Source of the DNA: Pseudothermotoga elfii DSM 9442 = NBRC 107921
Lineage (GTDB): Bacteria; Thermotogota; Thermotogae; Thermotogales; DSM-5069
Assembly: GCF_000504085.1 (NCBI RefSeq)
Contig: NC_022792.1
Coordinates: forward strand, 682,001 to 746,000
Reading direction: 5' to 3'
DNA length: 64,000 nucleotides
The notes beneath the pieces were generated by a model. The model searched no databases. It was not told the DNA's origin and saw only the letters and a program-made list of their open reading frames with translations. Below are positions 17,761-58,981 of this stretch, in pieces (position 1 is the stretch's first letter; each line of letters starts with the position of its first letter). The position numbers and the translations under genes are program-made.

Positions 17761-18087
17761 CGGAGAGAGGCGGGTGGTCGCAGGCGCTGCCTGAGGAAAG
17801 TCCGGACTCCACAGGGCAGGACGCTGGGTAATACCCAGGAGGAGCGATCCTCGGACAGGGCCATAGAGACTTCAAACCGCCTTGAAAGGCAAGGGTGGAA
17901 AGGTGAGGTAAGAGCTCACCAGCATCGGGGTGACCCGATGGCTCGGTAACCCCCGTTCGGAGCAAGGCCAAGCAGGGGTTGGGTGGTCCCGCCCGATAAC
18001 CCCGGGTAGGCCGCTTGAGGAGGGTGGTAACACCCTTCCAAGATAGATGACCACCTGAGACAGAATCCGGCTTACGGCCTCTCTCCG
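17761..18087 (+). ncRNA. rnpB: RNase P RNA, bacterial type A
   Basis: The catalytic RNA of RNase P, which matures tRNA 5' ends. The 5' CGGAGAGAGG pairs with 3' CCTCTCTCCG (18078-18087) to make P1. The conserved core is present: GAGGAAAGTCCGGACTCC near 17793-17810 and ACAGAATCCGGCTTACGGCC near 18060-18079, which together form P4 and flanking strands. Many GC-rich stems fit a thermophile. It sits between fmt and truA on the same strand, immediately after the fmt stop, and I see no clear separate promoter, so it may be processed from the operon transcript. Ends are inferred from P1 pairing. Confidence 0.95.
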
Positions 18088-18115
18088 ATTTAAAAATAAG
18101 GGGTGTAAGTAAGGC

Positions 18116-54869: not shown

Positions 54870-56066
54870 TCATAGTCCGAAAACTTGACAGAGTTCTTTC
54901 AACAAATCTTCTGCTTTATCTTCATGTACAAGGCATGATATCTTTATTTCAGAAGTTGTTATCATTTCTGGCTCTATGTTTTTCTTTCTCAAAACTTCAA
55001 AAAATTTTGCTGCAACACCTCGTTGATATTTCATTCCTAAACCTATTATTGATACCTTAGAAAACCCCCCTGTGATCTTAATTTCACAATCAAGATCTCT
55101 CATTGCCTTCTGTACGTCAACCGAGTTACTTTCAACAATTGTGAAAGATAGATTAATGTCTCCTGAGTTACTCACCAACGATATCATATCAACGTTAAAG
55201 CCTTTTTCAGCGAGTTCTCTAAATACGTCGGCGGTTGCTTTAGAATTTTTCAAGCTATAAACGCTGACCTTTACCTGATTTTTCTCTATCGTCGCGCCTG
55301 TAACAACGGGTCGCTCAAGCCATTCCGGAAGTTTTCCCATCACCCACGTTCCCTCCTCATTTGAAAACGAAGAAGCGCAATAAATTGGTACGCTGTATTT
55401 TTTTGCTATCTCAACACTTCGAGAATGTAGAACCCTGGCACCAAGTGCGGAGAATTCCAACATTTCATCGTATGTAATATAAGACAGTTTTTTTGCCTGG
55501 GGAAAGATCCTGGGATCTGTTGTATATATGCCAGCGACGTCGCTGTATATTTCGCAGATTGTTCCAAGTTTTGCGGCAATAGCAACAGCAGAAGTATCTG
55601 ATCCTCCTCTTCCAAGAGTTGTCAGTTCATCGTTTTCGTTTATTCCCTGAAACCCTGTAACAAGTAAAACATCGTTATGAAAAGCCAGCGATCTTAATTT
55701 TCGGTCATCTATATCTTTTATCCTTGCCGAATTAAAATCGCTGGTTGTCAGAATCCGAGCCTGAAACGCATTCAAAGATACAGCTTTCATACCTATTCTG
55801 TCAAGGTATATGGATAGCAAAGCAGCGGATATTTGTTCGCCACAGGATAACAACATATCCAGTTCTCTTGGATTGGGTTTTTCAGACAGCCTTCTTGCAA
55901 GAAAAACCAATTTGTCTGTTGTTTTTCCCATTGCAGAGACAACAACGATTAACTTTTTCCCATTTTTTACTGTTTTCACTATTTTCTCGGTAATTTTTTT
56001 GATTCTTTCTATGCTGGCAAGCGATGAGCCACCATATTTTTGTACAACAAGTTTCAGAAAAATCAC
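54870..56066 (-). CDS. lysC: Aspartate kinase
   Basis: 398 residues. First enzyme of the aspartate family: Asp + ATP to aspartyl-phosphate. VVQKYGGSSLAS (ATP/Asp site), VVVSAMGKTTD, LGRGGSDTSAVAIAA are in the kinase domain (1-245), followed by two ACT domains (NQVKVSVYSLKNSKA..., KVSIIGLGM), which usually bind lysine and/or threonine. Start is uncertain: GTG 56066 overlaps the dapB stop as GTGA but has a poor Shine-Dalgarno; CTG 56057 sits 6 nt after AGAGGTG, like the CTG start of mnmG. Confidence 0.95.
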   Translation of the reverse strand: MIFLKLVVQKYGGSSLASIERIKKITEKIVKTVKNGKKLIVVVSAMGKTTDKLVFLARRLSEKPNPRELDMLLSCGEQISAALLSIYLDRIGMKAVSLNAFQARILTTSDFNSARIKDIDDRKLRSLAFHNDVLLVTGFQGINENDELTTLGRGGSDTSAVAIAAKLGTICEIYSDVAGIYTTDPRIFPQAKKLSYITYDEMLEFSALGARVLHSRSVEIAKKYSVPIYCASSFSNEEGTWVMGKLPEWLERPVVTGATIEKNQVKVSVYSLKNSKATADVFRELAEKGFNVDMISLVSNSGDINLSFTIVESNSVDVQKAMRDLDCEIKITGGFSKVSIIGLGMKYQRGVAAKFFEVLRKKNIEPEMITTSEIKISCLVHEDKAEDLLKELCQVFGL

Positions 56067-56710
56067 CTCTTTTTGGATAAAACATCACGAAATGTGTAGA
56101 ACGAAGCTTTAGTACTGATAGCAAATTCAGCTGCTTTCAACGCACCGAGTGCAAAGATTTTTCTTGACATTGCCCTGTGAGATAATTCGATTACCTCGCC
56201 TTCATTTGCAAATAAAATTTTGTGATCGCCGAATATTCCTCCGGCGCGGATTGAGTGAATGGGGACATTTCCGAGGCTTTCACTCAAAAATAGAGCTGTG
56301 CCGGAAGGAGCGTCTTTCTTTTTCCTATGATGAAACTCAATGATTTCGATATCCCATTCAGAAAACTCCAGTTTGAAACTTTCCAGGATATTCTTTATCA
56401 CGTTTATTCCCACAGAAAAATTACTTGAATATACAACCGGAACCAGAGCAGACAATTCATTGAGCATCGATATGTCTTGTTCTTTCAAATTGGTTGTTCC
56501 AATAACTGCAGGGCATAGAAATTTTTTCGATAACTCCACGGTTTCTTTCAAAGCTTCTGGTGAAGAGAAGTCTAATATGATATCTGGTTTTTCTTGTACT
56601 TCTCTATGTGTTCTGTCAAATTTTGCCACTAATTGGTGGCAGTACTCGCTAAAAACCTCGATAATTTCCTTTCCCATTTTTCCTGAAAATCCAACGAGTC
56701 CATATTTCAT
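56063..56710 (-). CDS. dapB: 4-hydroxy-tetrahydrodipicolinate reductase
   Basis: 215 residues from ATG 56710, which shares one base with the dapA stop (TGATG) and has AAAGGA 8 nt upstream. NAD(P)H-binding GLVGFSGKMGKEI at the N terminus; substrate/catalytic region EFHHRKKKDAPSGTAL. Shorter than E. coli DapB (273 aa), as usual in Thermotogae. Second step of the lysine branch encoded here. Confidence 0.95.
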   Translation of the reverse strand: MKYGLVGFSGKMGKEIIEVFSEYCHQLVAKFDRTHREVQEKPDIILDFSSPEALKETVELSKKFLCPAVIGTTNLKEQDISMLNELSALVPVVYSSNFSVGINVIKNILESFKLEFSEWDIEIIEFHHRKKKDAPSGTALFLSESLGNVPIHSIRAGGIFGDHKILFANEGEVIELSHRAMSRKIFALGALKAAEFAISTKASFYTFRDVLSKKR

Positions 56711-57588
56711 CAGCACCATCCTTTCTTTGCCAGTAGATCTCTTAATGTTTCTATTGTGGATCTCGACGCACCGGTCATAGGTAACCTCAATTCATTTTTT
56801 ATTTTTCCCATCAACCATAGAGCAGCTTTAATAGGTACGGGGTTGGTTTCTATAAATAAAGATTTCATTAATTCAAGGTTTTCAAAGTGTGTTTTTCTTG
56901 CTAATTCGTAATTTTTGTCCAGCATTGCTCCAGTCAATCGAACCATGTTTTCCGGTGATATGTTCGAGAAAACCGATATAACACCAGCTGCTCCAACTGA
57001 CATTAAATGAATAGTTCTATCATCATTTCCTGACCATACATAAAAATCTTTTCTGCTAATGAGCCTTATTATTTCGTCTGCTTGAGAAACGTCTGTATTA
57101 GCTTCTTTTATGCCTATTATGTTTTTACAACGATCAGCCAGATATGCTACTGTTTCAGGGTTTATATTTACTCCGGTTCTCGATGGGACATTATAAATTA
57201 TCAATGGTATATTCAATCTTTCAGATAGGTACTTATAATGCTCAATTAAACCCTTCTGGGTTGGTTTGTTATAATAAGGACTGACAACCAAAACTGCATC
57301 AGCACCGTTTTTGCTTGCCAGATGGGACAGATGCAATGTTTTTTCTGTATCGTTTGTACCTGTTCCGACAATTACCTTAGCCCTGTCAGAACACATCTCC
57401 TTAGTTATGCTTGTGAGTTTCTCCCTTTCCTTATCTGTTAAAGTTGCCCCTTCTCCTGTAGTTCCTGCGACAACTATTGCTTGAATTTTCTCCGCAAGCT
57501 GCCATTTCACTAAATTTCTGTACGCACTATAATCGATTCTTCCGTTTTTGAACGGCGTGACGATCGCTGTACCAACACCTTTAAACAT
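56710..57588 (-). CDS. dapA: 4-hydroxy-tetrahydrodipicolinate synthase
   Basis: 292 residues from ATG 57588, with GGAGGGGGAAG upstream; the longer frame to 57609 enters the Shine-Dalgarno. It condenses pyruvate and aspartate semialdehyde. Schiff-base lysine in GIKEANTD, catalytic Tyr in IIYNVPSRTG, GTTGEGATL at the active site. First structural gene of the lysine operon, immediately downstream of an intrinsic terminator that can act as attenuator. Confidence 0.96.
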   Translation of the reverse strand: MFKGVGTAIVTPFKNGRIDYSAYRNLVKWQLAEKIQAIVVAGTTGEGATLTDKEREKLTSITKEMCSDRAKVIVGTGTNDTEKTLHLSHLASKNGADAVLVVSPYYNKPTQKGLIEHYKYLSERLNIPLIIYNVPSRTGVNINPETVAYLADRCKNIIGIKEANTDVSQADEIIRLISRKDFYVWSGNDDRTIHLMSVGAAGVISVFSNISPENMVRLTGAMLDKNYELARKTHFENLELMKSLFIETNPVPIKAALWLMGKIKNELRLPMTGASRSTIETLRDLLAKKGWC

Positions 57589-57610: not shown

Positions 57611-57641
57611 AAAAAAGCGGGCTACTTCTGGTAGCCCGCTT
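57611..57641 (-). terminator. Intrinsic terminator/attenuator before dapA
   Basis: Minus strand: AGCGGGCTAC (57640-57631), loop CAGAA, GTAGCCCGCT (57625-57616), a perfect 10-bp stem followed by TTTTTT. It lies after the leader peptide and 23 nt before the dapA ATG, so transcripts must escape it for dapA to be expressed. Confidence 0.88.
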
Positions 57642-57660
57642 CTCACACAGTGGTCGTGCT

Positions 57661-57756
57661 CTAAAAAAGCAAACACAACCACACCGCAAAAAGCGGGCAG
57701 TTGTGCTTGGTCTTCTTTATTATGCTGGCATTCACAGAATTCAGAGAATTCATCAT
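57661..57756 (-). CDS. Putative leader peptide of the dapA operon, with Lys-Lys-Thr-Lys
   Basis: A 31-codon frame from ATG 57756 (a second ATG follows at 57753) to TAG at 57661, preceded by GGGGGA with a 7-nt spacing. Codons 12-17 read Ile-Ile-Lys-Lys-Thr-Lys (ATA ATA AAG AAG ACC AAG), placed just before the first leader hairpin; the C terminus is hydrophobic (CPLFAVWLCLLF). The position between promoter and terminator of a lysine-biosynthesis operon is what a ribosome-stalling attenuator requires. A small membrane peptide is an alternative reading. Confidence 0.7.
   Translation of the reverse strand: MMNSLNSVNASIIKKTKHNCPLFAVWLCLLF
57674..57705 (-). promoter_or_regulatory. Leader hairpin holding the antiterminator strand
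   Basis: CACAAC (57705-57700) pairs with GTTGTG (57679-57674) and, inside, CCGC (57696-57693) with GCGG (57687-57684). The same region contains GCCCGCTT (57698-57691), fully complementary to AAGCGGGC (57641-57634), the 5' arm of the terminator. The two pairings exclude each other, giving a two-state switch. It overlaps codons 18-28 of the leader peptide. Confidence 0.65.
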
Positions 57757-57783
57757 TATTATATCCCCCAAGAGTTTTAAGTG

Positions 57784-57792
57784 ATTATATCA
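57784..57792 (-). promoter_or_regulatory. Extended -10 promoter of the dapA leader and operon
   Basis: Minus-strand TGA-TATAAT (57792 to 57784), a consensus extended -10; the -35 region is AT-rich without a good match. Transcription would begin near 57777, giving a 21-nt untranslated region before the leader ATG. Confidence 0.65.
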
Positions 57793-58036: not shown

Positions 58037-58981
58037 ATGCGGGAACTTTTTTCTTTGAAAAGCTTTCAGGTTTTAGTTGTGCTTTCAGTCATGGGGCTGA
58101 TTGGCTGGTTCGTACCTTTTGCTCCTTTAAAGATCATATTGGTTTTCACAAGCATTATATTTTTGGCGTTTACTCTGAAAACCTTTACGGGAAAGATGGC
58201 TGGTTTCATAGTCTTATCTCTTTTGCTTTTTTTCATACCTGCCTCAATCGGATATTATGGTTCGACACATAGCTTTTCATGGTTCAATTTTGAACCTTTC
58301 ATTAAGGGTTTTCTGAATCAGGTTCCATCAAATAAAATCACAACTGTTTTTCCAGACACGCTTGTTCAAAGTGAATCTGTAATACAGATCAATTTGACAA
58401 ATGTTGAAGTTCAATTCACTGATTCTGACAGAATAATGGTTCCCGGTGAATTATCGGTTAGGAGTGCACCATCTGGATTGATCATCGAAGGTGGAAGCCA
58501 TTTAAAGAAATATATTCTGGAGATTGGAAAAGCGGATCTGAAAGATTTGCAGATACGTGCAACAACCGTTTCACTCACTGGAAGTGCAAATTTGAGAAAT
58601 CTCAGATTGAATTCAACGAGTATTAATATTTCAGGAACAATTGAAGCTCAAGAAATGTTTGCTGACGGGACAGGTATCAATTTGAATGGGAATTTCTCCG
58701 GAAAAGATTTAATTTTAAACGGCACAGGGGTGAGTTTATCTGGTTCGTACGAATTTCAAGATATCCTCATCGACTGTACTGGGATTTCACTGCACATGGA
58801 TTTATCAAACTGCAATCATCTATCTATTGATACAACAGGGATCAACGGGACAATTAATTATTCAGGCGATACAGATCTCTATGTTCAGATAGATGGTACA
58901 GGAGGAAAACTGAAACTGGTGAACAAATCAAATGCAGATGTCTTCATAGATAGTTCCGGTGTTAAAGTGGCGAGAGAGTGA
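58037..58981 (+). CDS. Membrane protein with repetitive beta-helix domain (DUF4097-like)
   Basis: 314 residues from ATG with GGAGGTGG upstream. Three hydrophobic spans in the first 75 residues, then an outside domain of repeating short strands (ATTVSLTGSANL, STSINISGTIEA, GTGINLNGNFSG, GTGVSLSGSYEF, CTGISLHMDLSN) resembling the DUF4097/putative adhesin beta-helix. Function unknown; domains like this accompany cell-envelope stress regulators in other bacteria. First gene of the operon; its stop overlaps the GntR start as GTGA. Confidence 0.7.
   Translation: MRELFSLKSFQVLVVLSVMGLIGWFVPFAPLKIILVFTSIIFLAFTLKTFTGKMAGFIVLSLLLFFIPASIGYYGSTHSFSWFNFEPFIKGFLNQVPSNKITTVFPDTLVQSESVIQINLTNVEVQFTDSDRIMVPGELSVRSAPSGLIIEGGSHLKKYILEIGKADLKDLQIRATTVSLTGSANLRNLRLNSTSINISGTIEAQEMFADGTGINLNGNFSGKDLILNGTGVSLSGSYEFQDILIDCTGISLHMDLSNCNHLSIDTTGINGTINYSGDTDLYVQIDGTGGKLKLVNKSNADVFIDSSGVKVARE

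Follow-up and report, generated by a model that had tools for sequence, protein, structure and literature searches.

The window, by which we mean the whole 64,000-nucleotide stretch analysed here, carries three genes of lysine biosynthesis on its minus strand, and the RNA ahead of them raises the question of how their transcription is controlled. The regulated gene, dapA (4-hydroxy-tetrahydrodipicolinate synthase, 56710–57588; TIGR00674, 328 bits with the cut-off at 206), is followed by dapB (4-hydroxy-tetrahydrodipicolinate reductase, 56063–56719; TIGR00036, above cut-off) and lysC (aspartate kinase, 54870–56066; NF005154, 522 bits with the cut-off at 376). It is very probable that a transcription attenuator of the ribosome-mediated kind, sensing charged tRNA-Lys, controls dapA-dapB-lysC. 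The elements that characterize such an attenuator are found in the leader: an ORF with a ribosome-binding site, clustered cognate codons, mutually exclusive helices and, in silico, a fold that depends on the ribosome.

The window belongs to a genome of 2,169,860 bp. We take the genera of this genome and its relatives to be Pseudothermotoga, Fervidobacterium and other Thermotogota; the placement in the Thermotogota agrees with an Rfam control and with two named Thermosipho contigs. Elsewhere in the window, a bacterial class A RNase P RNA is located at 17762–18090 (286 bits).

Anatomy of the dapA leader

All of the elements described here lie on the minus strand. A candidate extended -10 promoter element, TGATATAAT, is found at 57784–57792 by resemblance to the consensus, and the transcript probably starts near 57777. 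The Shine-Dalgarno sequence GGGGGA (57764–57769) is positioned 7 nt 5' of the ATG of a leader ORF of 31 codons, MMNSLNSVNASIIKKTKHNCPLFAVWLCLLF (57661–57756), which has counterparts in 22 other genomes. The control codons of this ORF, AAG AAG ACC AAG (codons 14–17, 57706–57717), place lysine at codons 14, 15 and 17, which precede segment 2 by 19, 16 and 10 nt, respectively, and the same spacing is seen in many relatives. All three Lys codons are AAG; in four proteins of the window, AAA and AAG are used 75 and 23 times, respectively. The ORF spans all of segment 2 and ends at a stop codon at 57663–57661.

The leader can form three alternative structures. Segment 1, CAAGCACAAC (57700–57709), is the 5' arm of a pre-emptor (1:2) hairpin, for which compensatory changes are seen in relatives and whose 3' arm, GTTGTGTTTG (57670–57679), was located by folding; this hairpin also pairs CCGC (57696–57693) with GCGG, and the Lys codons pair with a U-run at its base. 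The antiterminator (2:3) consists of two helices. In the outer helix, GCCCGCTTTT of segment 2 (57689–57698) pairs with AGAAGCGGGC of segment 3 (57634–57643), which overlaps the 5' arm of the terminator. The initial annotation of this DNA had described GCCCGCTT (57698–57691) as perfectly complementary to AAGCGGGC (57641–57634); this holds, coordinates included, and the outer helix is an extension of that pairing which includes one G-U. The inner helix, formed by GTGGTTGTG of segment 2 (57674–57682) and CACGACCAC of segment 3 (57650–57658), was absent from the annotation and is the part that is truly exclusive with the 1:2 hairpin. Its segment 2 strand overlaps the 3' arm of that hairpin, which gives the classical exclusive set of 1:2, 2:3 and 3:4. 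The intrinsic terminator (57611–57641), recognized from sequence and folding, is made up of a 5' arm, AAGCGGGCTAC, a 3' arm, GTAGCCCGCTT (57625–57615), and a U-run (57616–57611), and lies 22 bp upstream of the dapA start codon (57588).

The complementarity between segments 2 and 3 is well beyond that seen by chance. The duplex of the 117-nt leader with segment 3 (57657–57634) has an energy of -34.9 kcal/mol. When the leader was dinucleotide-shuffled 10,000 times (mean -15.5 ± 2.7 kcal/mol), this value was not reached once, and GCCCGCTT alone appears in 12 of 10,000 such shuffles. The same duplex test was applied to 118 terminator-like stems of the fetched loci: z ≤ -3 was obtained for 35, all of which match leader attenuators of this type by position, and this threshold was not reached by ordinary terminators or opposite-strand stems in the set. 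One leader (G058), flagged by no other method, was picked up blind by this test.

Ribosome position and the folding of the leader

In the mechanism that we propose, scarcity of Lys-tRNA would cause the first ribosome to stall with AAG codon 14 or 15 in its A site. The front of a ribosome lies about 13 nt beyond the A site; taken together with the codon spacing, a stall at the control codons would therefore leave segment 2 free. The leading edge of the stalled ribosome would reach approximately 57704–57701, disrupting the 1:2 hairpin and releasing segment 2 (57698–57674), which would pair with segment 3 (57658–57634) as the latter is transcribed, ahead of the 3' arm of the terminator, so that RNA polymerase would continue into dapA. 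With plentiful Lys-tRNA, the ribosome would translate across segment 2 to the stop codon, leaving segment 3 unpaired and allowing the terminator to form. A stall at codons 14–15 had been suggested from the beginning, and it is now backed by the spacing of the Lys codons, by the complementarity across lineages and by control codons that match their target genes.

The leader was folded with the ribosome at different positions at 37–70 °C, both as the full-length RNA and as a transcript ending at 57634. On the truncated transcript, a ribosome with codon 14 or 15 in the A site gives a probability of 0.96–1.00 for the antiterminator over this temperature range, confirming that the antiterminator is able to compete. 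With the ribosome at codon 17 the probability of the outer antiterminator helix is approximately 0.5, and the antiterminator falls to 0 once the A site holds the stop codon. The initial annotation had left it undecided whether a ribosome at the stop codon covers the antiterminator strand or releases it; since the ORF spans segment 2, a non-starved ribosome covers it. Similar switching with ribosome position is seen in truncated transcripts of 12 relatives. A probability of 0.66 for the antiterminator, obtained on a longer RNA, is an artefact of 19 extra 3' bases that pair with the 3' arm of the terminator, and was discarded.

On the full-length RNA the terminator dominates at equilibrium at 37–70 °C (probability 0.91–1.00) for any ribosome position, stalled included, and it also dominates in the full-length RNA of relatives. 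Equilibrium folding of the full-length RNA thus samples the wrong ensemble for a test of the switch, and truncated transcripts were used instead. With a ribosome at codon 14 or 15, the proposed antitermination pairing is the dominant fold as long as the transcript is truncated, but loses to the terminator once the RNA is complete. Consequently, these models indicate that the switch would have to be kinetic, which means that 2:3 would have to form before the 3' arm of the terminator is made. The hairpin said to cage the antiterminator strand exists; however, it can cage that strand only through the order of folding, because the truncated RNA without a ribosome prefers 2:3 over 1:2, and the 1:2 hairpin would therefore act only by forming first. 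For the same reason, basal termination in the absence of translation is predicted not to be tight.

Related leaders, covariation and control codons

The same architecture precedes lysine genes (dapA, asd-dapF-dapA, dapD, lysC and dapF) in 22 other Thermotogota genomes. With the window's genome included, the lysine set covers 23 genomes, with 25 tabulated leaders and the G058 leader in addition. Leaders of dapA with the same layout and different helix sequences occur in two more genera belonging to the family (L003 in G007 and L006 in G006), and the layout also precedes asd-dapF-dapA in Fervidobacterium-like genomes and in G047. A covariance model (R1), built from ten leaders and searched over the order and the phylum, added the dapD leaders of nine genomes within the family and, from the genome of the window itself, a dapF leader; the latter (L174, G000:C1:2060269-2060378, minus strand) precedes dapF-dapD and is the second lysine-pathway attenuator of this genome. 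Leaders were also found before lysC in G046 and G065 and before dapF in G058. Those of G046, located by synteny, and G058 are independent of R1, with which most of the others were collected; this mode of collection biases the conserved core and hardly affects the variable part. Nine weak matches to R1 (L186, L201, L202, L206, L209, L213, L215, L218 and L219) have no cognate leader ORF and are probably ordinary terminators. A search of the genome contigs with DapA yielded distant relatives that were of little use for the leader.

Covariation in homologous leaders, named in the initial annotation as a way to refute the pairings, is present. Outside the core GCCCGN/NCGGGC, segment 2 of each of 12 lineage representatives was paired with foreign segments 3: the antiterminators' own pairs sum to -144.9 kcal/mol compared with -70.1 ± 11.9 for the permuted ones, and none of 5000 permutations was as good. 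The variable part of the window's leader is by itself unexceptional, being equalled by 23% of foreign pairings, but the set as a whole is exceptional. The core also changes on both sides (GCCCGC/GCGGGC, GCCCGG/CCGGGC, GCCCTC/GAGGGC), and in the 1:2 and terminator helices seven pairs are changed on both sides, compared with 0 of 500 shuffles. In the leader ORFs an excess of substitutions at codon position 3 was looked for and none was seen; with no synonymous bias, translation of the leaders is supported instead by conservation of frame and length, the ORF lengths being identical in sister species despite drift of the sequence.

The cognate codons of the tabulated leaders fall in a narrow range, mostly from -22 to -10 nt relative to segment 2. 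Lys codons precede dapA, asd, dapD, dapF and lysC, where they lie at -22 to -8, and also an amino-acid permease. There are exceptions: the dapA leader of G006 has Lys at -13 and -10 only, and the dapF leader of the window's genome (L174) has a single Lys, at -10, in which it differs from all other lysine leaders.

Leaders with other control codons were also observed. In G006, the leader of hom (homoserine dehydrogenase; L175, G006:C1:390988-391107, minus strand), MCEVFVVAQLNSGTTTTSNCPPAERRLLVVV, has the Thr codons ACA-ACA-ACT-ACA. It strongly resembles the dapA leader of the same genome, with Thr replacing Lys at the control positions, and the comparison of the two sequences suggests a duplicated element in which the control codons were swapped. 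In the window's genome, a TGG-TGG (Trp) leader, ..AYAYWWFRGMPSS.. (L173, G000:C1:1347519-1347669, minus strand), precedes a gene for a TrpX-type tryptophan ABC transporter; similar aromatic leaders occur in G051 and G057, and a TGG-TGG-TGG (WWW) leader ahead of an unnamed gene in G047. An ATG-ATG-ATG leader (L205, G086:C1:2938-3052, plus strand) precedes a metQ-like binding protein, a name given by eye to an 80-residue fragment with no NCBIfam match; its complementarity is weak (p = 0.048), and it is possibly a methionine-sensing leader peptide. Attenuator-like leaders with mixed Lys, His and Arg codons (L172, G000:C1:507484-507606, plus strand, as well as L185, L188, L189 and L203) have ABC binding proteins of the lysine/arginine/ornithine type downstream, and which amino acid they sense is uncertain. 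Finally, an attenuator-like leader, ..NNQPEPKVW.., lies upstream of citrate synthase in G089 (L204) and G087 (L214), where the control codons might be those for Gln, Pro or Glu. The attenuators named here for the window's genome, found through searches and in individual stretches, are at least those that it has.

These codon patterns bear on whether the dapA leader might sense general translation, or the basic amino acids jointly, and not lysine specifically. Leaders of basic amino-acid transporters do mix Lys, His and Arg, and dapA leaders too have His or Arg at -7; however, it is Lys that recurs at -22 to -10 in the lysine biosynthetic leaders, and the hom leader of G006, so like the dapA leader of that genome, has Thr at those very positions. 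We therefore regard such a broad specificity as unlikely.

A different possibility is that the same terminator is governed by a ligand- or protein-binding RNA (a riboswitch, a T-box or a protein-dependent attenuator), the short ORF being incidental. Riboswitches and T-boxes share the layout of a terminator with an alternative pairing, and Rfam gives a sub-threshold likeness to the L20 leader, which scores 27.7 bits where the cut-off is 58.7. No Rfam family is above cut-off at the leader or its relatives, and there is no T-box match at the leader, in the window or in the relatives. Conservation resides in the codon content and in the distance of the codons from segment 2, and not in an aptamer; with an unchanged fold, specificity tracks the codons (Lys, Thr, Trp, Met). 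This arrangement makes a binding RNA distinctly unlikely. A constitutive terminator with chance pairings, serving as mere insulation against upstream transcription, is extremely improbable: the strong intrinsic terminator just 5' of dapA would suit it, but the complementarity is unmatched in the shuffles and kept across the phylum, and the closest long ORF upstream of the leader (58037–58981, plus strand) is divergent, which leaves no obvious read-through that would need insulation. A leader in which ribosome stalling reports on Lys-tRNA accounts for the data best.

Proposed exchange with the lysine riboswitch and comparison with known systems

The lysine riboswitch (L box, RF00168) controls the same pathway and is present in 57 of 103 Thermotogota genomes; none of these 57 has a Lys attenuator. 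It is absent from the leader, the window and the whole genome to which the window belongs, as well as from the family of that genome. In Thermotoga- and Thermosipho-like relatives, RF00168 matches are located a few kb or less upstream of dapA, on the strand of that gene, and within one family (f3) the Fervidobacterium-like genera have the attenuator and the Thermosipho-like genera the riboswitch. No p-value is given for this exclusion because genomes are not independent points. The two sensors differ in that the riboswitch aptamer senses free lysine and does not need translation. We consider it rather more probable than otherwise that the Thermotogota have a modular family of attenuators, in which control codons (Lys, Thr, Trp, Met, Lys/His/Arg) are swapped and the chassis is kept, and that the Lys versions replace the riboswitch in several lineages, including within a single family. 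Lysine biosynthesis is the textbook case of riboswitch control, and these bacteria appear to gauge lysine through translation instead; this would be a natural swap of RNA sensors for the same pathway in related genera. A chassis that recurs with swapped codons also opens the evolution of attenuator specificity to direct tests.

An exchange of sensors at the same gene has been described by Naville and Gautheret in 2010 (PMC2965389), where, in Bacilli, hisS/hisZ has a histidine leader peptide in place of the other RNA sensor of its relatives, an exchange like the one proposed here; the amino acid, the phylum and the gene are all different from the dapA case, and the text mentions neither Thermotoga, Fervidobacterium nor lysine. 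According to the same paper, leader-peptide systems were then known only in Proteobacteria, Actinobacteria, the Firmicutes example of the authors themselves and the atypical ermC. Lysine has been placed under L-box control, with attenuators for His, Thr and Phe (PMC1262725). We found no earlier lysine leader-peptide attenuator in the open literature, and no report there of leader-peptide attenuation in thermophiles; a comparative survey published by Lopatovskaya et al. in 2010, cited in PMC4833913, might predict a lysine attenuator.

As far as could be checked, the lysine specificity and the Thermotogota host are new, and the mechanism is classical. To our knowledge, the lysine and methionine specificities are both new for leader-peptide attenuation. 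The dapA leader shares with the trp, his, thr, ilv, leu and phe attenuators of Proteobacteria and Actinobacteria a leader ORF with tandem control codons ahead of the cognate biosynthetic operon, and the same succession of 1:2 hairpin, 2:3 antiterminator and 3:4 intrinsic terminator. In contrast with those systems, it is lysine-specific and belongs to the Thermotogota, its ORF runs through segment 2, and its antiterminator helix is built in two parts.
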